From: Aerophototrophica crusticola
GTDB lineage: Bacteria; Pseudomonadota; Alphaproteobacteria; Azospirillales; Azospirillaceae
Reading direction: 5' to 3'
Length of the DNA: 64,000 nt
NCBI GenBank assembly: GCA_001939945.1
Contig: MOEB01000015.1
Location: 1-64,000, forward strand
The notes under the pieces were generated by a model. That model saw only the letters and a list, made by a program, of their open reading frames with translations. It ran no database searches and was not told the DNA's origin. The translations under genes and the position numbers were made by a program. Position 1 is the stretch's first letter. Every line of letters begins with the position of its first letter. Shown piece after piece: positions 56,990-60,588 of the stretch.

Positions 56990-57577
56990 ATGCCCATGGC
57001 CGACACGACCCTGAGCCAGCGCCTGCGCGCGGCGACCGAAGTGATCCACCAGCAGACGGAGTCCCTGCCCTTCGCCGCCCGGCTGATGGCGCCCGACCTG
57101 GACCGGGACACCTATGCCCGCACCCTGGCCCGCATGCTGGGGGTGATCGGGCCGCTGGAGGCGGCGGTGACGGAAGCCGACCGGGACGGCGCCCTGGGCT
57201 TCCTGCCCCTGCCCCAGGCGGGCAGCATCGTGGCCGACCTGTTCCGGCTGGGCTGGGACGAGGGGCGGGTGGGCGGCCTGCCCCTGGCGCCCCTGCCGCC
57301 GGGGCTGGACATCACCCCCGCGGCAGCGGGCGTGGCCTACCTGCTGGACGGCAGCCTGCTGGGCGGCCGGGTGGTGGCGCGGCGCCTGCGCGACAGCCTG
57401 GGGCCGGAGGTCGCGGGGTCCTTGAGCTTCCACGCCGACGACCCCGCCGCCAGCCAGCAATGGCAGCTCTGCCGCGCCTGGCTGGACGGGCTGCCCGCCG
57501 ATTGGGCCGACGGGGCGGAGGCCGGCGCCCTGTCTGCCTTCACCGCCCTGCGGGACTGGATGGCCGGCGCGCCCTGA
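56990..57577 (+). CDS. Biliverdin-producing heme oxygenase
   Basis: A 195-residue heme oxygenase. The proximal heme ligand is His20 in LRAATEVIHQQTE, and the distal-helix glycines are in YLLDGSLLGGRVVARRL (the equivalent of LGxxLGG). The enzyme opens heme to biliverdin, iron and CO. Biliverdin is the chromophore of the bacteriophytochrome encoded 93 bp downstream, so the gene most likely supplies it, as bphO does elsewhere. It follows the L,D-transpeptidase gene by 2 bp and may be read from that promoter too. Confidence 0.92.
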   Translation: MPMADTTLSQRLRAATEVIHQQTESLPFAARLMAPDLDRDTYARTLARMLGVIGPLEAAVTEADRDGALGFLPLPQAGSIVADLFRLGWDEGRVGGLPLAPLPPGLDITPAAAGVAYLLDGSLLGGRVVARRLRDSLGPEVAGSLSFHADDPAASQQWQLCRAWLDGLPADWADGAEAGALSAFTALRDWMAGAP

Positions 57578-57600
57578 TCCGGCCCGGGCCGGAAGGTGGG

Positions 57601-57629
57601 TTGCCAAGGGGGTACTTCCGGTAGACAAT
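57601..57629 (+). promoter_or_regulatory. Possible sigma-70-type promoter of the photoreceptor gene
   Basis: TTGCCA and GACAAT are separated by exactly 17 bp in the gap between the heme oxygenase and the photoreceptor, 42 bp before its ATG. It is a fair match (five of six and four of six). Confidence 0.5.
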
Positions 57630-57670
57630 TCCCGCGTGTGTCATGTCGGCAGGTAACCGCGGGGTCGGGA

Positions 57671-60370
57671 ATGGGTTCGGACGCGGGGAGGGACTTCGGC
57701 GAGGTCTTCCGCGGCTTCGCCCTGGATGACCTGTCGCCGGAGCAGTTCGACGAGCTGCCCTTCGGCGCCATCCAGGTGGACGCCAACGGCATCATCCACC
57801 GCTACAACCGCGCGGAAAGCCAGCTGTCCGGCCGCGCGCCGGAACGGGTGGTCGGCCGGGACTTTTTCCGCGACGTGGCCCCCTGCACCAACATGCCGGG
57901 CTTCCAGGGCCGCTTCGCCGAGGGGGTGGCCCGCGGCAGCCTGGATGTGGGCTTCACCTTCGTCTTCGATTTCCACATGGCCCCGGTGCGGGTCGGCATC
58001 CACATGCGGGACGCCGCCGAGCCGGGCCGCTACTGGATCCTGGTCCGGGTGATCGAGCGGCTGCAACCCTACCGTCCGGCGGAGGCGCAACGCATCGTCG
58101 CCCAACGGTCCAACGTCACCGTGGACGGGGCGATGCTGGACCTGTCCGTCTGTGAGCGGGAACGCATCCACCTGCCGGGCGCCATCCAGCCCTTCGGCGC
58201 CCTGCTGGCCCTGGACCCGTACAGCCTGACGGTCACGGCCTGCAGCGCCAACGCCTGGGAGCTGCTGGGCCTTGAAGCCCCGGGGGACCGCGCCCTGCCC
58301 CTGGACGCCTTGCTGCCGGAAGGGGTGCCCGCCGCCCTGCGCCGCGCCATGGCCGACGGGCTGCTGGCGGAAGGCCAGAGCTGGGAGGACCAGGTCCGCT
58401 GCCCGCGCACCGGCCAGCCCCTGTACCTGTCCGCCCACCGCTGGGGCGGACGGCTGCTGCTGGAGCTGGAGTCCCTGGTGGGGGTGGACACCGGCCAGGG
58501 GGTCCGCACCGCCGCGGTCGTGCAACGGGGCATGGCGGCGATGCGGCGCAACGCCGGCTTGGTGGAGCTGGCCCAGTCCATGGCCCGCGCCCTGCGGGAC
58601 CTGACGGGGTTCGAGCGGGTGCTGGTCTACCGCTTCGACCGGGACTGGCACGGCCAGGTGCTGGCGGAGGACAAGGTGCCCGACTGGGAGCAGTCCTTCG
58701 CCGGGCTGCATTTCCCCGCCTCCGACATCCCACGGCAGGCGCGGGACCTGTATGTGCGCAGCCCCATCCGCCATGTGCCCGACCGGGACTATGTGCCCGT
58801 GCCGCTGCTGGCCGGGGACGGCGCGGCGGCGGGGGAGGCGCTGGACCTCAGCCTGTCGCGGCTGCGCAGCCTGTCGCCGGTGCACCTGGAATACCACCGG
58901 AACATGGGCGTCAACGGGTCCATGTCCATTTCCATCCTGCAGGACGGCAAGCTCTGGGGCCTGGCCACCTTCCACCACCGGCTGCCCCACTTCGTGGACC
59001 CGGTGCGGCGGGCGGCGGCCCTGTCCCTGACAGAGGCGTTCGGCCTACGCATCGCCTCCGTCCTCCAGGCCCAGGCAACGCGGGAGCGGCGGGCCGACGC
59101 GGACCGGCTGAACCGGCTCATCGCGCAGATGGCGGGGTCAACCGACTTCCTGCTGGCCCTGACCCAGGGGCCGGACGACATCAGCGCCCTGTTCCAGGGG
59201 GGCGGGGCGGCCATCCTCTACCAGGGCCGGGCCGCCTGTGTGGGCCGGACCCCGCCGGAGACGGCCCTGGGCACCCTGGCGGGCTGGCTGCGGGACCAGG
59301 TGGTGGATGACGGCATCTTCATGACCGACGCCCTGCCGTCCCTCTGCCCGGCGCTGGAGAAGCACCGGGAGGTGGCGAGCGGCTTGCTGGCCGTGCGGCT
59401 GGCGGCGGACGCGGATGACTGGCTGCTGTGGTTCCGGCCGGAGGAGGCCCAGCTCATCGTCTGGGGCGGCAACCCGCACAAGCCCGCCGAACGGCGGGAG
59501 GACGGGACGGCGGCGGTGCTGCCCCGCGCCAGCTTCGAGCGGTGGGTGGAGGAAAGGCGCGGCCAGGCCCAGCCCTGGGCCGGGTGGGAGCCGGACATCG
59601 CCCGCAGCCTGCGCCATGCCATCAACGACGTGATCCTGCGCCACATGCGGCAGCTGGCGGAACTGAACGAGCGGCTGCGCTCCAGCGACGCGGCCAAGTC
59701 CCGCTTCCTGGCCAACATGAGCCATGAGCTGCGCACGCCGCTGAACGCCATCCTTGGCTTCTCGGAGGTGCTGGAGGCGGGGCTGTTCGGGCCGCTGACG
59801 CCGAAGCAGCGGGAATATATCGGCGACATCCACGCCTCGGGCCGGCACCTGCTGGCCATGGTGACCGACATGCTGGACCTGGCCCGGATCGAGGCGGGGC
59901 GGCTGGAACTGCGCCCCGAGCCGGTGGACCTGGCCGTGCTGGTGGAAGAGAGCGTGGCCCTGGCCCGCCCGCGGGCGGAGGTGGAGGGGGTGGAGCTGCT
60001 GACCAGCCTGCCCGTGCCGCTGCCGCCCCTGTCCGCCGACCCGGTGCGGCTGAAGCAGGTCCTGCTGAACCTGGTCACCAACGCCGTGAAGTTCACCCCC
60101 CGCGGCGGCCGGGTGGAAGTGTCCGCCGAGGCGCTGCCGGACGCGGTGGCCCTGGAGGTGCGCGACACCGGCGTGGGCATGACCCCGGCGGAGGTGGCCC
60201 TGTCCCTGGAACCCTTCCGCCAGGTCAGCAACTTCACCAAGCATGTGCAGGAGGGCGCGGGCCTGGGCCTGCCCATCTCCCGCATGCTGGTCCAACTCCA
60301 CGGCGGCGACTTGTCGATCCGCAGCCGGCCCGGTGCCGGGACGACGGTGCGGGTGGTGCTGCCGCGATGA
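57671..60370 (+). CDS. ppr: PYP-bacteriophytochrome hybrid sensor histidine kinase (Ppr-type)
   Basis: An 899-residue photoreceptor kinase. Residues 1-125 are a photoactive yellow protein domain: Tyr45 and Glu49 in HRYNRAES, Arg55, and the p-coumaroyl attachment Cys72 in DVAPCTNMPGF. Next is the bacteriophytochrome core: Cys161 in SVCERERIHLPGAIQPFG (biliverdin attachment), a PAS, the GAF with FPASDIPRQARDLY and the bilin-pocket stretch RSLSPVHLEYHRNMGVNGSM, then PHY. A His kinase follows: H-box NMSHELRTPLNAILGFSE (His685), N-box LNLVTNAVKFTP, DTGVGM and GLGLPIS. The order PYP-BphP-HK is that of Ppr in Rhodospirillum centenum, which senses blue and red/far-red light. Relative to model PYP, Thr50 is replaced by Ser53. 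It follows the heme oxygenase gene; no response regulator or coumarate-activating gene is in the window. Confidence 0.96.
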   Translation: MGSDAGRDFGEVFRGFALDDLSPEQFDELPFGAIQVDANGIIHRYNRAESQLSGRAPERVVGRDFFRDVAPCTNMPGFQGRFAEGVARGSLDVGFTFVFDFHMAPVRVGIHMRDAAEPGRYWILVRVIERLQPYRPAEAQRIVAQRSNVTVDGAMLDLSVCERERIHLPGAIQPFGALLALDPYSLTVTACSANAWELLGLEAPGDRALPLDALLPEGVPAALRRAMADGLLAEGQSWEDQVRCPRTGQPLYLSAHRWGGRLLLELESLVGVDTGQGVRTAAVVQRGMAAMRRNAGLVELAQSMARALRDLTGFERVLVYRFDRDWHGQVLAEDKVPDWEQSFAGLHFPASDIPRQARDLYVRSPIRHVPDRDYVPVPLLAGDGAAAGEALDLSLSRLRSLSPVHLEYHRNMGVNGSMSISILQDGKLWGLATFHHRLPHFVDPVRRAAALSLTEAFGLRIASVLQAQATRERRADADRLNRLIAQMAGSTDFLLALTQGPDDISALFQGGGAAILYQGRAACVGRTPPETALGTLAGWLRDQVVDDGIFMTDALPSLCPALEKHREVASGLLAVRLAADADDWLLWFRPEEAQLIVWGGNPHKPAERREDGTAAVLPRASFERWVEERRGQAQPWAGWEPDIARSLRHAINDVILRHMRQLAELNERLRSSDAAKSRFLANMSHELRTPLNAILGFSEVLEAGLFGPLTPKQREYIGDIHASGRHLLAMVTDMLDLARIEAGRLELRPEPVDLAVLVEESVALARPRAEVEGVELLTSLPVPLPPLSADPVRLKQVLLNLVTNAVKFTPRGGRVEVSAEALPDAVALEVRDTGVGMTPAEVALSLEPFRQVSNFTKHVQEGAGLGLPISRMLVQLHGGDLSIRSRPGAGTTVRVVLPR

Positions 60371-60588
60371 AGGGAAGGACGATGGCCATGCAAGGAAAGC
60401 CCGAGCCCTGGGACCGTGCGCCCGATAGCGTCCGACGCAGCCGCGCGTTCCATCCCTCTGAGCTTCCGGAGCACCTGAAGGAGGCGTTGGAGACTGCGCG
60501 CATGGACCCGCGGCACGAGCACCTCAACGCCCTGATGGATGCCGGAATCGAGCCCACAGCCGCTGGGTTGGGGCCGAACCGCCTGTGA
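60367..60588 (+). CDS. Small hypothetical protein overlapping the photoreceptor stop
   Basis: The ATG at 60367 overlaps the kinase stop in ATGA. The 73-residue product, MKGRTMAMQGKPEPWDRAPD with a helical SELPEHLKEALETARMDPRHEHLNALMDAGIEP, has no family I recognise. A shorter start (MAMQGKPEPW) is possible. Translational coupling suggests a product linked to the photoreceptor, but coding is not proven. Confidence 0.5.
   Translation: MKGRTMAMQGKPEPWDRAPDSVRRSRAFHPSELPEHLKEALETARMDPRHEHLNALMDAGIEPTAAGLGPNRL

Follow-up and report, generated by a model that had tools for sequence, protein, structure and literature searches.

The stretch of DNA analysed here (the window) comprises positions 1 to 64,000 of contig MOEB01000015.1 of Aerophototrophica crusticola, hereafter the host, and carries a gene for a photoreceptor of the Ppr type, in which a photoactive yellow protein (PYP) domain is followed by a PAS-GAF-PHY bacteriophytochrome and a HisKA-HATPase histidine kinase. 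The gene is preceded by a heme oxygenase gene and a candidate promoter and followed by a short open reading frame (ORF). An initial annotation, made from the sequence without database searches, had placed these three reading frames, and their positions proved correct (Table 1).

Table 1. Features of the window and of host contig C245 that are discussed in the text
Feature	Position	Strand	Evidence or remark
Ppr: PYP - PAS-GAF-PHY bacteriophytochrome - HisKA-HATPase histidine kinase, 899 aa	57671..60370	+	domain scans, motifs, alignment, tree
PYP domain of Ppr, residues 17-126	57719..58048	+	TIGR02373 match, alignment; Cys72 (57884-57886) corresponds to PYP Cys69
PAS_2 domain of the phytochrome part, starting with biliverdin-binding Cys161 (58151-58153)	58151..58474	+	PF08446, 73.9 bits
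GAF domain	58559..59056	+	PF01590, 46.3 bits
PHY domain with PRASF tongue motif	59111..59644	+	PF00360, 164.2 bits
HisKA dimerisation/phosphoacceptor domain, His685 (59723-59725)	59693..59899	+	PF00512, 80.5 bits
HATPase_c domain	60038..60364	+	PF02518, 101.4 bits
BphO-type heme oxygenase, 195 aa; proximal His20 and GSxLGG distal helix kept	56990..57577	+	PF01126, alignment, AlphaFold/Foldseek
Sigma-70-like promoter site TTGCCA-17-GACAAT between heme oxygenase and Ppr	57601..57629	+	consensus match only
73-codon ORF; codons 25-58 (60439-60540) match the C-terminal tail of Phd/YefM-like antitoxins	60367..60588	+	probable remnant
REP-like inverted pair, CCCCCGCGAAGGCGGGGG and its reverse, 70 bases apart	60604..60691		follows the small ORF
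Chemoreceptor gene	44559-46559	-	about 10 kb from the heme oxygenase gene
Chemoreceptor gene	23902-25584	-	about 31 kb from the heme oxygenase gene
Free PYP	L035:1146-1517		contig C245 of the host
Putative 4-coumarate-CoA ligase	L035:1532-2737		contig C245 of the host
Methyl-accepting chemotaxis protein (MCP)	L035:3007-4812		contig C245 of the host

Judged by its sequence, the long frame, which starts with the ATG at 57671 (a second in-frame candidate start is the GTG at 57596), encodes a well-preserved Ppr. The N-terminal PYP domain matches TIGR02373 with 151.7-156.6 bits (curated NCBIfam cut-off 143.05), every one of the PAS_2, GAF, PHY, HisKA and HATPase_c domains scores above its own Pfam cut-off, and the portion after the PYP matches bacteriophytochromes. 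The best solved relative of the PYP part is PDB entry 1mzu ('PPR', E 8.3e-47), the PYP of Ppr from Rhodospirillum centenum (Rhodocista centenaria). Alignment places Tyr45, Glu49, Arg55 and Cys72 on Tyr42, Glu46, Arg52 and Cys69 of PYP, and a motif check together with the alignment reveals that Cys161 (LSVCE), PASDIP, SPVHLEY, the PRxSF tongue, His685 and the N and G boxes are retained. The initial annotation had proposed the fusion of a PYP with a bacteriophytochrome kinase, the retention of the four PYP residues and the presence of the N-terminal phytochrome Cys and of the GAF/PHY/kinase motifs, all of which is borne out by these matches.

A search for Ppr relatives in 82 genomes of the order, with confirmation by domain scan, yielded four carriers: the host, G001, G054 and G076, the last taken to be R. 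centenum, as the PYP of its Ppr is identical to 1mzu across the alignment printed. No Ppr was detected in 10 other genomes of the host genus, five of which gave a PYP match, none of them in a frame longer than 155 codons. Across the class, 385 genomes were sampled, in many of which only 11 candidates were scored, and nine had a PYP match with E <= 1e-25. A search of genome_contigs with the PYP part as a single protein confirmed no relative and an alignment query was used instead, by which 283 places encoding a PYP relative were obtained; the best 80 were retained for neighbourhood analysis, and in 24 of these a phytochrome match follows directly after the PYP, PYP and phytochrome being not readable as a single whole frame in two (L088 and L097). 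The initial annotation had called the architecture rare, and in the class sample only the host has a PYP match in a frame of more than 700 codons; however, the 24 places among the best 80 of 283 and the 52 PYP-phytochrome proteins counted in a 2025 survey (PMC12826048) speak against rarity of the architecture as such.

The output kinases of these proteins were compared in 28 rows, consisting of the 24 loci, three further loci and the window (L096 repeats L037). The motif call gave HisKA for two rows (window and R. centenum), HWE/HisKA_2 for 20, GGDEF/EAL for five and no class for L080, whose kinase is HisKA_2/HWE by Pfam; the Pfam class was checked on the window, R. centenum, G001, G054 and L080, the class of the other rows being that of the motif call. 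Among the 23 rows of PYP-phytochrome kinases, HisKA occurs in two, again the window and R. centenum, and HWE/HisKA_2 in 21, so that, on sequence criteria, the rarity lies in the HisKA form among the PYP-phytochrome kinases of the set compared. In a tree of the PAS-GAF-PHY part with 27 rows (L088, L096 and L097 removed, two other host phytochromes added, a third host PAS_2 protein missed by the motif filter), the window Ppr is sister to R. centenum Ppr with support 96/96. Identity between the two amounts to 63% for the PYP, 49% for the phytochrome and 56% for the kinase module, and to 51% in the figure given with the tree.

As a side observation, G078-G081 contain a PYP beside a kinase that shares 43-46% identity with the window kinase, with no phytochrome match in the stretches searched. 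The PYP follows the kinase in L038:7706-8848 (G081) and in L020-L022 and L041 (G078-G080), an order which the published PAS-PAS-HisKA-HATPase-PYP layout may fit, and G080 has a 1029-codon frame with a PYP match.

R. centenum Ppr shares with the window protein the order of the domains, Ser at position 50 and the chromophore residues, and R. centenum shares with the host the family, reaction-centre genes and a type III polyketide synthase gene. The two differ in that the heme oxygenase gene is adjacent to ppr in the window and distant in R. centenum, and in that the host has an extra free PYP accompanied by a ligase, whereas a single PYP match was obtained in the genome of R. centenum. The Ppr proteins of Methylobacterium, Roseomonas, Belnapia, Sphingomonas lenta, Arenibaculum and Indioceanicola show the same PYP-phytochrome-kinase order, Ser50 where aligned and in part a neighbouring heme oxygenase, but their kinases are of the HWE/HisKA_2 class and their heme oxygenase genes, where found, lie downstream instead of upstream. 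Ppd proteins of Chromatiaceae (PYP-phytochrome-GGDEF/EAL) resemble the window protein in the order of PYP and phytochrome and differ from it by an output through cyclic-di-GMP, by Thr50 in 5 of 5 rows and by an identity of only 31-36% in the main phytochrome segment.

Ser in place of Thr50 had been noticed in the initial annotation as a change that could shift the photocycle. It is not peculiar to this protein, as Ser was found in all 21 PYP-phytochrome kinase rows with a letter at this position (20 distinct; two further rows are gapped), and thereby represents the rule within Ppr; as a spectral prediction the remark is sound. Free PYPs of the order, including that of the host, have Thr50 in 13 of 13 rows read (14 were examined, L016 falling outside the pattern). 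Published maxima are 434 +/- 1.4 nm for the Ser50 PYPs measured (R. centenum and S. ruber) and 445 +/- 2.7 nm for six Thr50 PYPs (PMC12826048). By analogy, Ser50 of the window Ppr predicts a bluer maximum than that of Thr50 PYPs, and the split between fused and free PYPs offers a direct and cheap spectral prediction. Since Thr occurs in free and Ser in kinase-fused PYPs across the rows examined, selection may have assigned the two kinds different tasks, separated by colour and output.

The free PYP of the host (199.4 bits, Thr50) is encoded on contig C245, where it is followed by a putative 4-coumarate-CoA ligase gene and then by an MCP gene, an arrangement that constitutes a candidate phototaxis unit. 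Tentatively, and with the odds against it, each cell might perceive blue through two channels in addition to red, the free Thr50 PYP (about 445 nm) serving motility and the Ser50 Ppr (about 434 nm) serving HisKA-dependent gene control, both drawing on one ligase and one heme oxygenase.

From the domains, the kept residues, the position in the tree, the heme oxygenase fold and the presence of the ligase and polyketide synthase genes, we infer how the protein would work, from chromophore loading and photochemistry to kinase direction, partner and target. With a probability of about 0.8, the locus encodes an R. centenum-type Ppr functioning as a soluble two-chromophore sensor histidine kinase in the following way. 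Cys72 would carry p-coumarate and confer blue sensing, with a maximum expected near 434 nm as in other Ser50 PYPs, and Cys161 would carry biliverdin made by the adjoining upstream heme oxygenase and confer red/far-red sensing. Both light inputs would converge in the phytochrome core and set the autophosphorylation of His685, from which the phosphoryl group would be passed to a response regulator whose gene would lie at another locus. As output, control of the type III polyketide synthase gene would be the most likely, in keeping with what is reported of the ppr mutant of R. centenum, with a possible side contact to chemotaxis through CheW.

Several observations weigh against this reading. In the GAF domain, His409 (SPVHLEYHRN, 58895-58897), within a motif of the chromophore pocket, corresponds to Leu in R. 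centenum and to Gln in the remaining Ppr rows. The AlphaFold model of full-length Ppr is poor (pLDDT 67, pTM 0.51) and has low values over most of the kinase part, probably as the other 11 rows of the alignment have kinases of a different class; it was discarded as a guide to the coupling of the two sensors. The pieces missing from the locus had been supposed to lie elsewhere in the genome, which appears right for the ligase on contig C245 and is no more than a supposition for the tyrosine ammonia-lyase and the response regulator. No canonical tyrosine ammonia-lyase was found in the host genome by a PF00221 search and inspection of selectivity motifs; the putative ligase itself scores 324.7 bits with TIGR02372, 10 below the curated cut-off of 334.7. 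A receiver profile built from three sequences detected no receiver gene within the window or in the 16 kb of contig beyond it, the part of the genome searched for partners. At two control loci it did recover receivers, plus one additional protein at one of them; of its three seeds, two stem from these very loci. The 434 nm figure for Ser50 PYPs is a trend with exceptions (PMC12826048), and R. centenum holo-Ppr absorbs at 425, 400, 642 and 701 nm, the 425 nm band being given as that of the PYP (PMC2993699).

The source of biliverdin is the point at which an alternative comes closest. The PF01126 match of the putative heme oxygenase is weak (39.5 bits, residues 7-67 only), and His20, Gly121, Ser122, Gly125 and Gly126 are invariant in a 7-row alignment. 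Its AlphaFold model (pLDDT 85) finds HmuO as best Foldseek matches (TMq 0.73-0.78), and all 50 matches listed are HmuO and other heme oxygenases (TMq 0.66-0.78). Judged by modelled fold and kept residues, the product is a real heme oxygenase, sharing with BphO-type enzymes and HmuO the fold, the proximal His and the GSxLGG helix, but only 29-35% identical to the enzymes compared and placed uncertainly on a long branch. A heme oxygenase tree intended to reveal the origin of the window enzyme was set aside, as only 2 of its 11 inner branches are well supported and long branches meet in it.

The heme oxygenase gene begins 2 bases past the stop codon of an L,D-transpeptidase gene, with which it looks co-transcribed. 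The promoter that the initial annotation had supposed between heme oxygenase and Ppr has a candidate there, the sole promoter-like site in 56900-60800 (50 shuffles, mean 0.0, sd 0.2). The description of the enzyme as Ppr's own needs qualification: it adjoins Ppr upstream, but no second heme oxygenase turned up when the host genome was searched twice and, as three of the four host PAS_2 proteins carry the biliverdin Cys, it must also serve two other Cys-bearing phytochromes. Among 26 distinct PYP-phytochrome records surveyed with flanks up to about 10 kb (much shorter on some contigs), a heme oxygenase gene was found near 12, in every case downstream, 11 of them directly and that of L155 about 1.6 kb further with a weaker match. 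Near the other 14, including R. centenum, the profile, which diverged enzymes may escape, detected none; some of the flanks are short. The sole heme oxygenase match of R. centenum lies at 0.59 Mb and its ppr at 3.32 Mb. This count is at odds with PMC9664959, where a heme oxygenase beside the PYP-phytochrome gene is stated as constant ('always').

It might thus be that the heme oxygenase is the general biliverdin source of the cell, expressed together with the L,D-transpeptidase and beside Ppr by accident of position. The 2-base gap, the location of the promoter-like site after the heme oxygenase, the three Cys-bearing phytochromes sharing a single detected enzyme, and the downstream or distant location of the genes in other records and in R. 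centenum all favour it. However, the neighbourhood recurs in 12 of 26 records and is described as constant in print (PMC9664959), and this recurrence argues for a functional pairing even if other phytochromes are served as well. We consider the general-source explanation a serious one that falls somewhat short of even odds.

Within the host genus (G000, G066-G075), the five genomes with a Cys-bearing phytochrome all have a heme oxygenase, and the six without one lack it, possessing Cys-less GGDEF-like PAS_2 proteins only (a second PAS_2 protein of G073 and of G075 was left out of this count). A search for the empty site in this genus was hampered in that, in the nine relatives with both genes placed, the transpeptidase and FxsA genes are on separate contigs or 0.26 Mb apart (G067). 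Seven FxsA and four transpeptidase neighbourhoods of relatives, read by eye, contained neither heme oxygenase nor ppr; the genes after FxsA vary and no clean empty site was recognised. In three of the four relatives read, and probably in the fourth, the L,D-transpeptidase gene is followed by a DUF882-type-like gene, where in the window (55242-57577) heme oxygenase and ppr stand instead.

With regard to output, the type III polyketide synthase of the host shows 72.9% identity (361 columns) with the sole protein that PF00195 matches in R. centenum, and deletion of ppr in R. centenum deregulates the chalcone synthase gene (Jiang et al. 1999, as reported in PMC2993699). The host genome also contains two PF00124 reaction-centre genes (pufL/M-like), because of which the host, like R. 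centenum, is probably phototrophic. Alternatively, the Ppr kinase might address mainly the chemotaxis machinery (CheW/CheA) instead of a gene regulator and act as a sensor for photomotility or adaptation. The R. centenum Ppr kinase binds CheW with a KD of about 130 nM and inhibits chemotaxis of E. coli (PMC2993699), the kinase module of the window shows the 56% identity given above, two chemoreceptor genes lie within the window, and the free PYP of the host stands ahead of an MCP gene. According to the same source, however, deletion of ppr in R. centenum caused no change in phototactic behaviour (PMC2993699), and the chemoreceptor genes of the window do not form an operon with ppr, so that a mainly chemotactic role appears doubtful. 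The architectures of the two window chemoreceptors are CHASE3-HAMP-MCPsignal in one and Cache-MCPsignal in the other.

The two lyases of family PF00221 in the host are an SH-type HutH, located beside an apparent urocanase gene, and a second protein with an FH motif. The PYP-linked lyase of G054 carries HL, and R. centenum shows one lyase of this family, of the SH (histidine) type, HL and SH being understood as selectivity motifs. The second host lyase gave no clear sign of being a tyrosine ammonia-lyase: its scores with the NCBIfam models for the BagA/FevW tyrosine ammonia-lyase and for HutH are nearly equal and both far below cut-off, and FH fits neither. The absence of ligase and tyrosine ammonia-lyase genes near ppr is not odd, because such genes occur in only 32% and 5%, respectively, of pyp operons (PMC12826048). 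That the PYP domain of Ppr no longer senses light, being either unloaded or devoted to redox sensing, a role suggested for certain methylobacterial Pprs, would agree with the want of a canonical tyrosine ammonia-lyase in the host genome, yet it is very improbable: Tyr, Glu, Arg and Cys are all kept, unlike in the Y42C, S50C or Cys69-less methylobacterial forms (PMC9664959), a probable coumarate ligase is encoded in the genome, and R. centenum, whose Ppr bears a chromophore in print, likewise shows only a histidine-type lyase.

The Ppr architecture, its heme oxygenase neighbourhood and several PYPs per genome (more than one in 16% of genomes; PMC12826048) are already in print (PMC9664959, PMC12826048), and the locus is not a new kind of system. 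What the locus contributes is another HisKA-type Ppr, the second among those compared, whose heme oxygenase gene is arranged differently. In the literature found, experiments on HisKA-type Ppr concern R. centenum, for which either the polyketide synthase gene or chemotaxis comes into question as the output. A second such Ppr, from a probable phototroph in which a free PYP, its putative ligase, the corresponding polyketide synthase gene and just one detected heme oxygenase occur as well, provides a comparative handle, and two species allow conserved surfaces and conserved target genes to be compared.

The initial annotation had regarded the small ORF, which overlaps the stop codon of Ppr, as coupled to Ppr; the overlap stands, but the ORF is most likely an antitoxin remnant. 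Its codons 25-58 match antitoxin tails with 37.0 bits, the best of 2000 shuffles reaching 5.4. A Shine-Dalgarno-like GGGAAGG precedes a later in-frame ATG at 60382, because of which the start is uncertain. Three relatives elsewhere read as complete antitoxins, presumably of the Phd/YefM-like kind; two of them stand beside what are presumably PemK/MazF-like toxin genes. The likeness to this family is confined to the C-terminal tail: the ORF lacks the DNA-binding N-terminal half, and no toxin gene is adjacent, the neighbours called being Ppr and FxsA. An additional match in G050 (codons 2-38) contains two internal stops. Judged by its sequence, the ORF is thus probably a remnant. The least probable of the alternatives is that the ORF encodes a partner or regulator of Ppr whose translation is coupled to it. 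The overlap and a third-position GC content of 0.81 (second position 0.51; Ppr third position 0.95) could be cited in its favour; against it stand the antitoxin match, the lack of any tie to Ppr in the three other genomes and the absence of a match in the genomes of the other three Ppr carriers, R. centenum, G001 and G054.

The REP-like inverted pair downstream of the small ORF repeats with the same 70-base spacing on the contig bearing the reaction-centre genes; besides 60604-60691, the sites listed are 43576 of the window, L079:102 and 172, and L071:5025. By inspection of the gene calls, the window further contains VapBC-like and HigBA-like toxin-antitoxin pairs, listed at 50470-51204 and 17798-18432, respectively.

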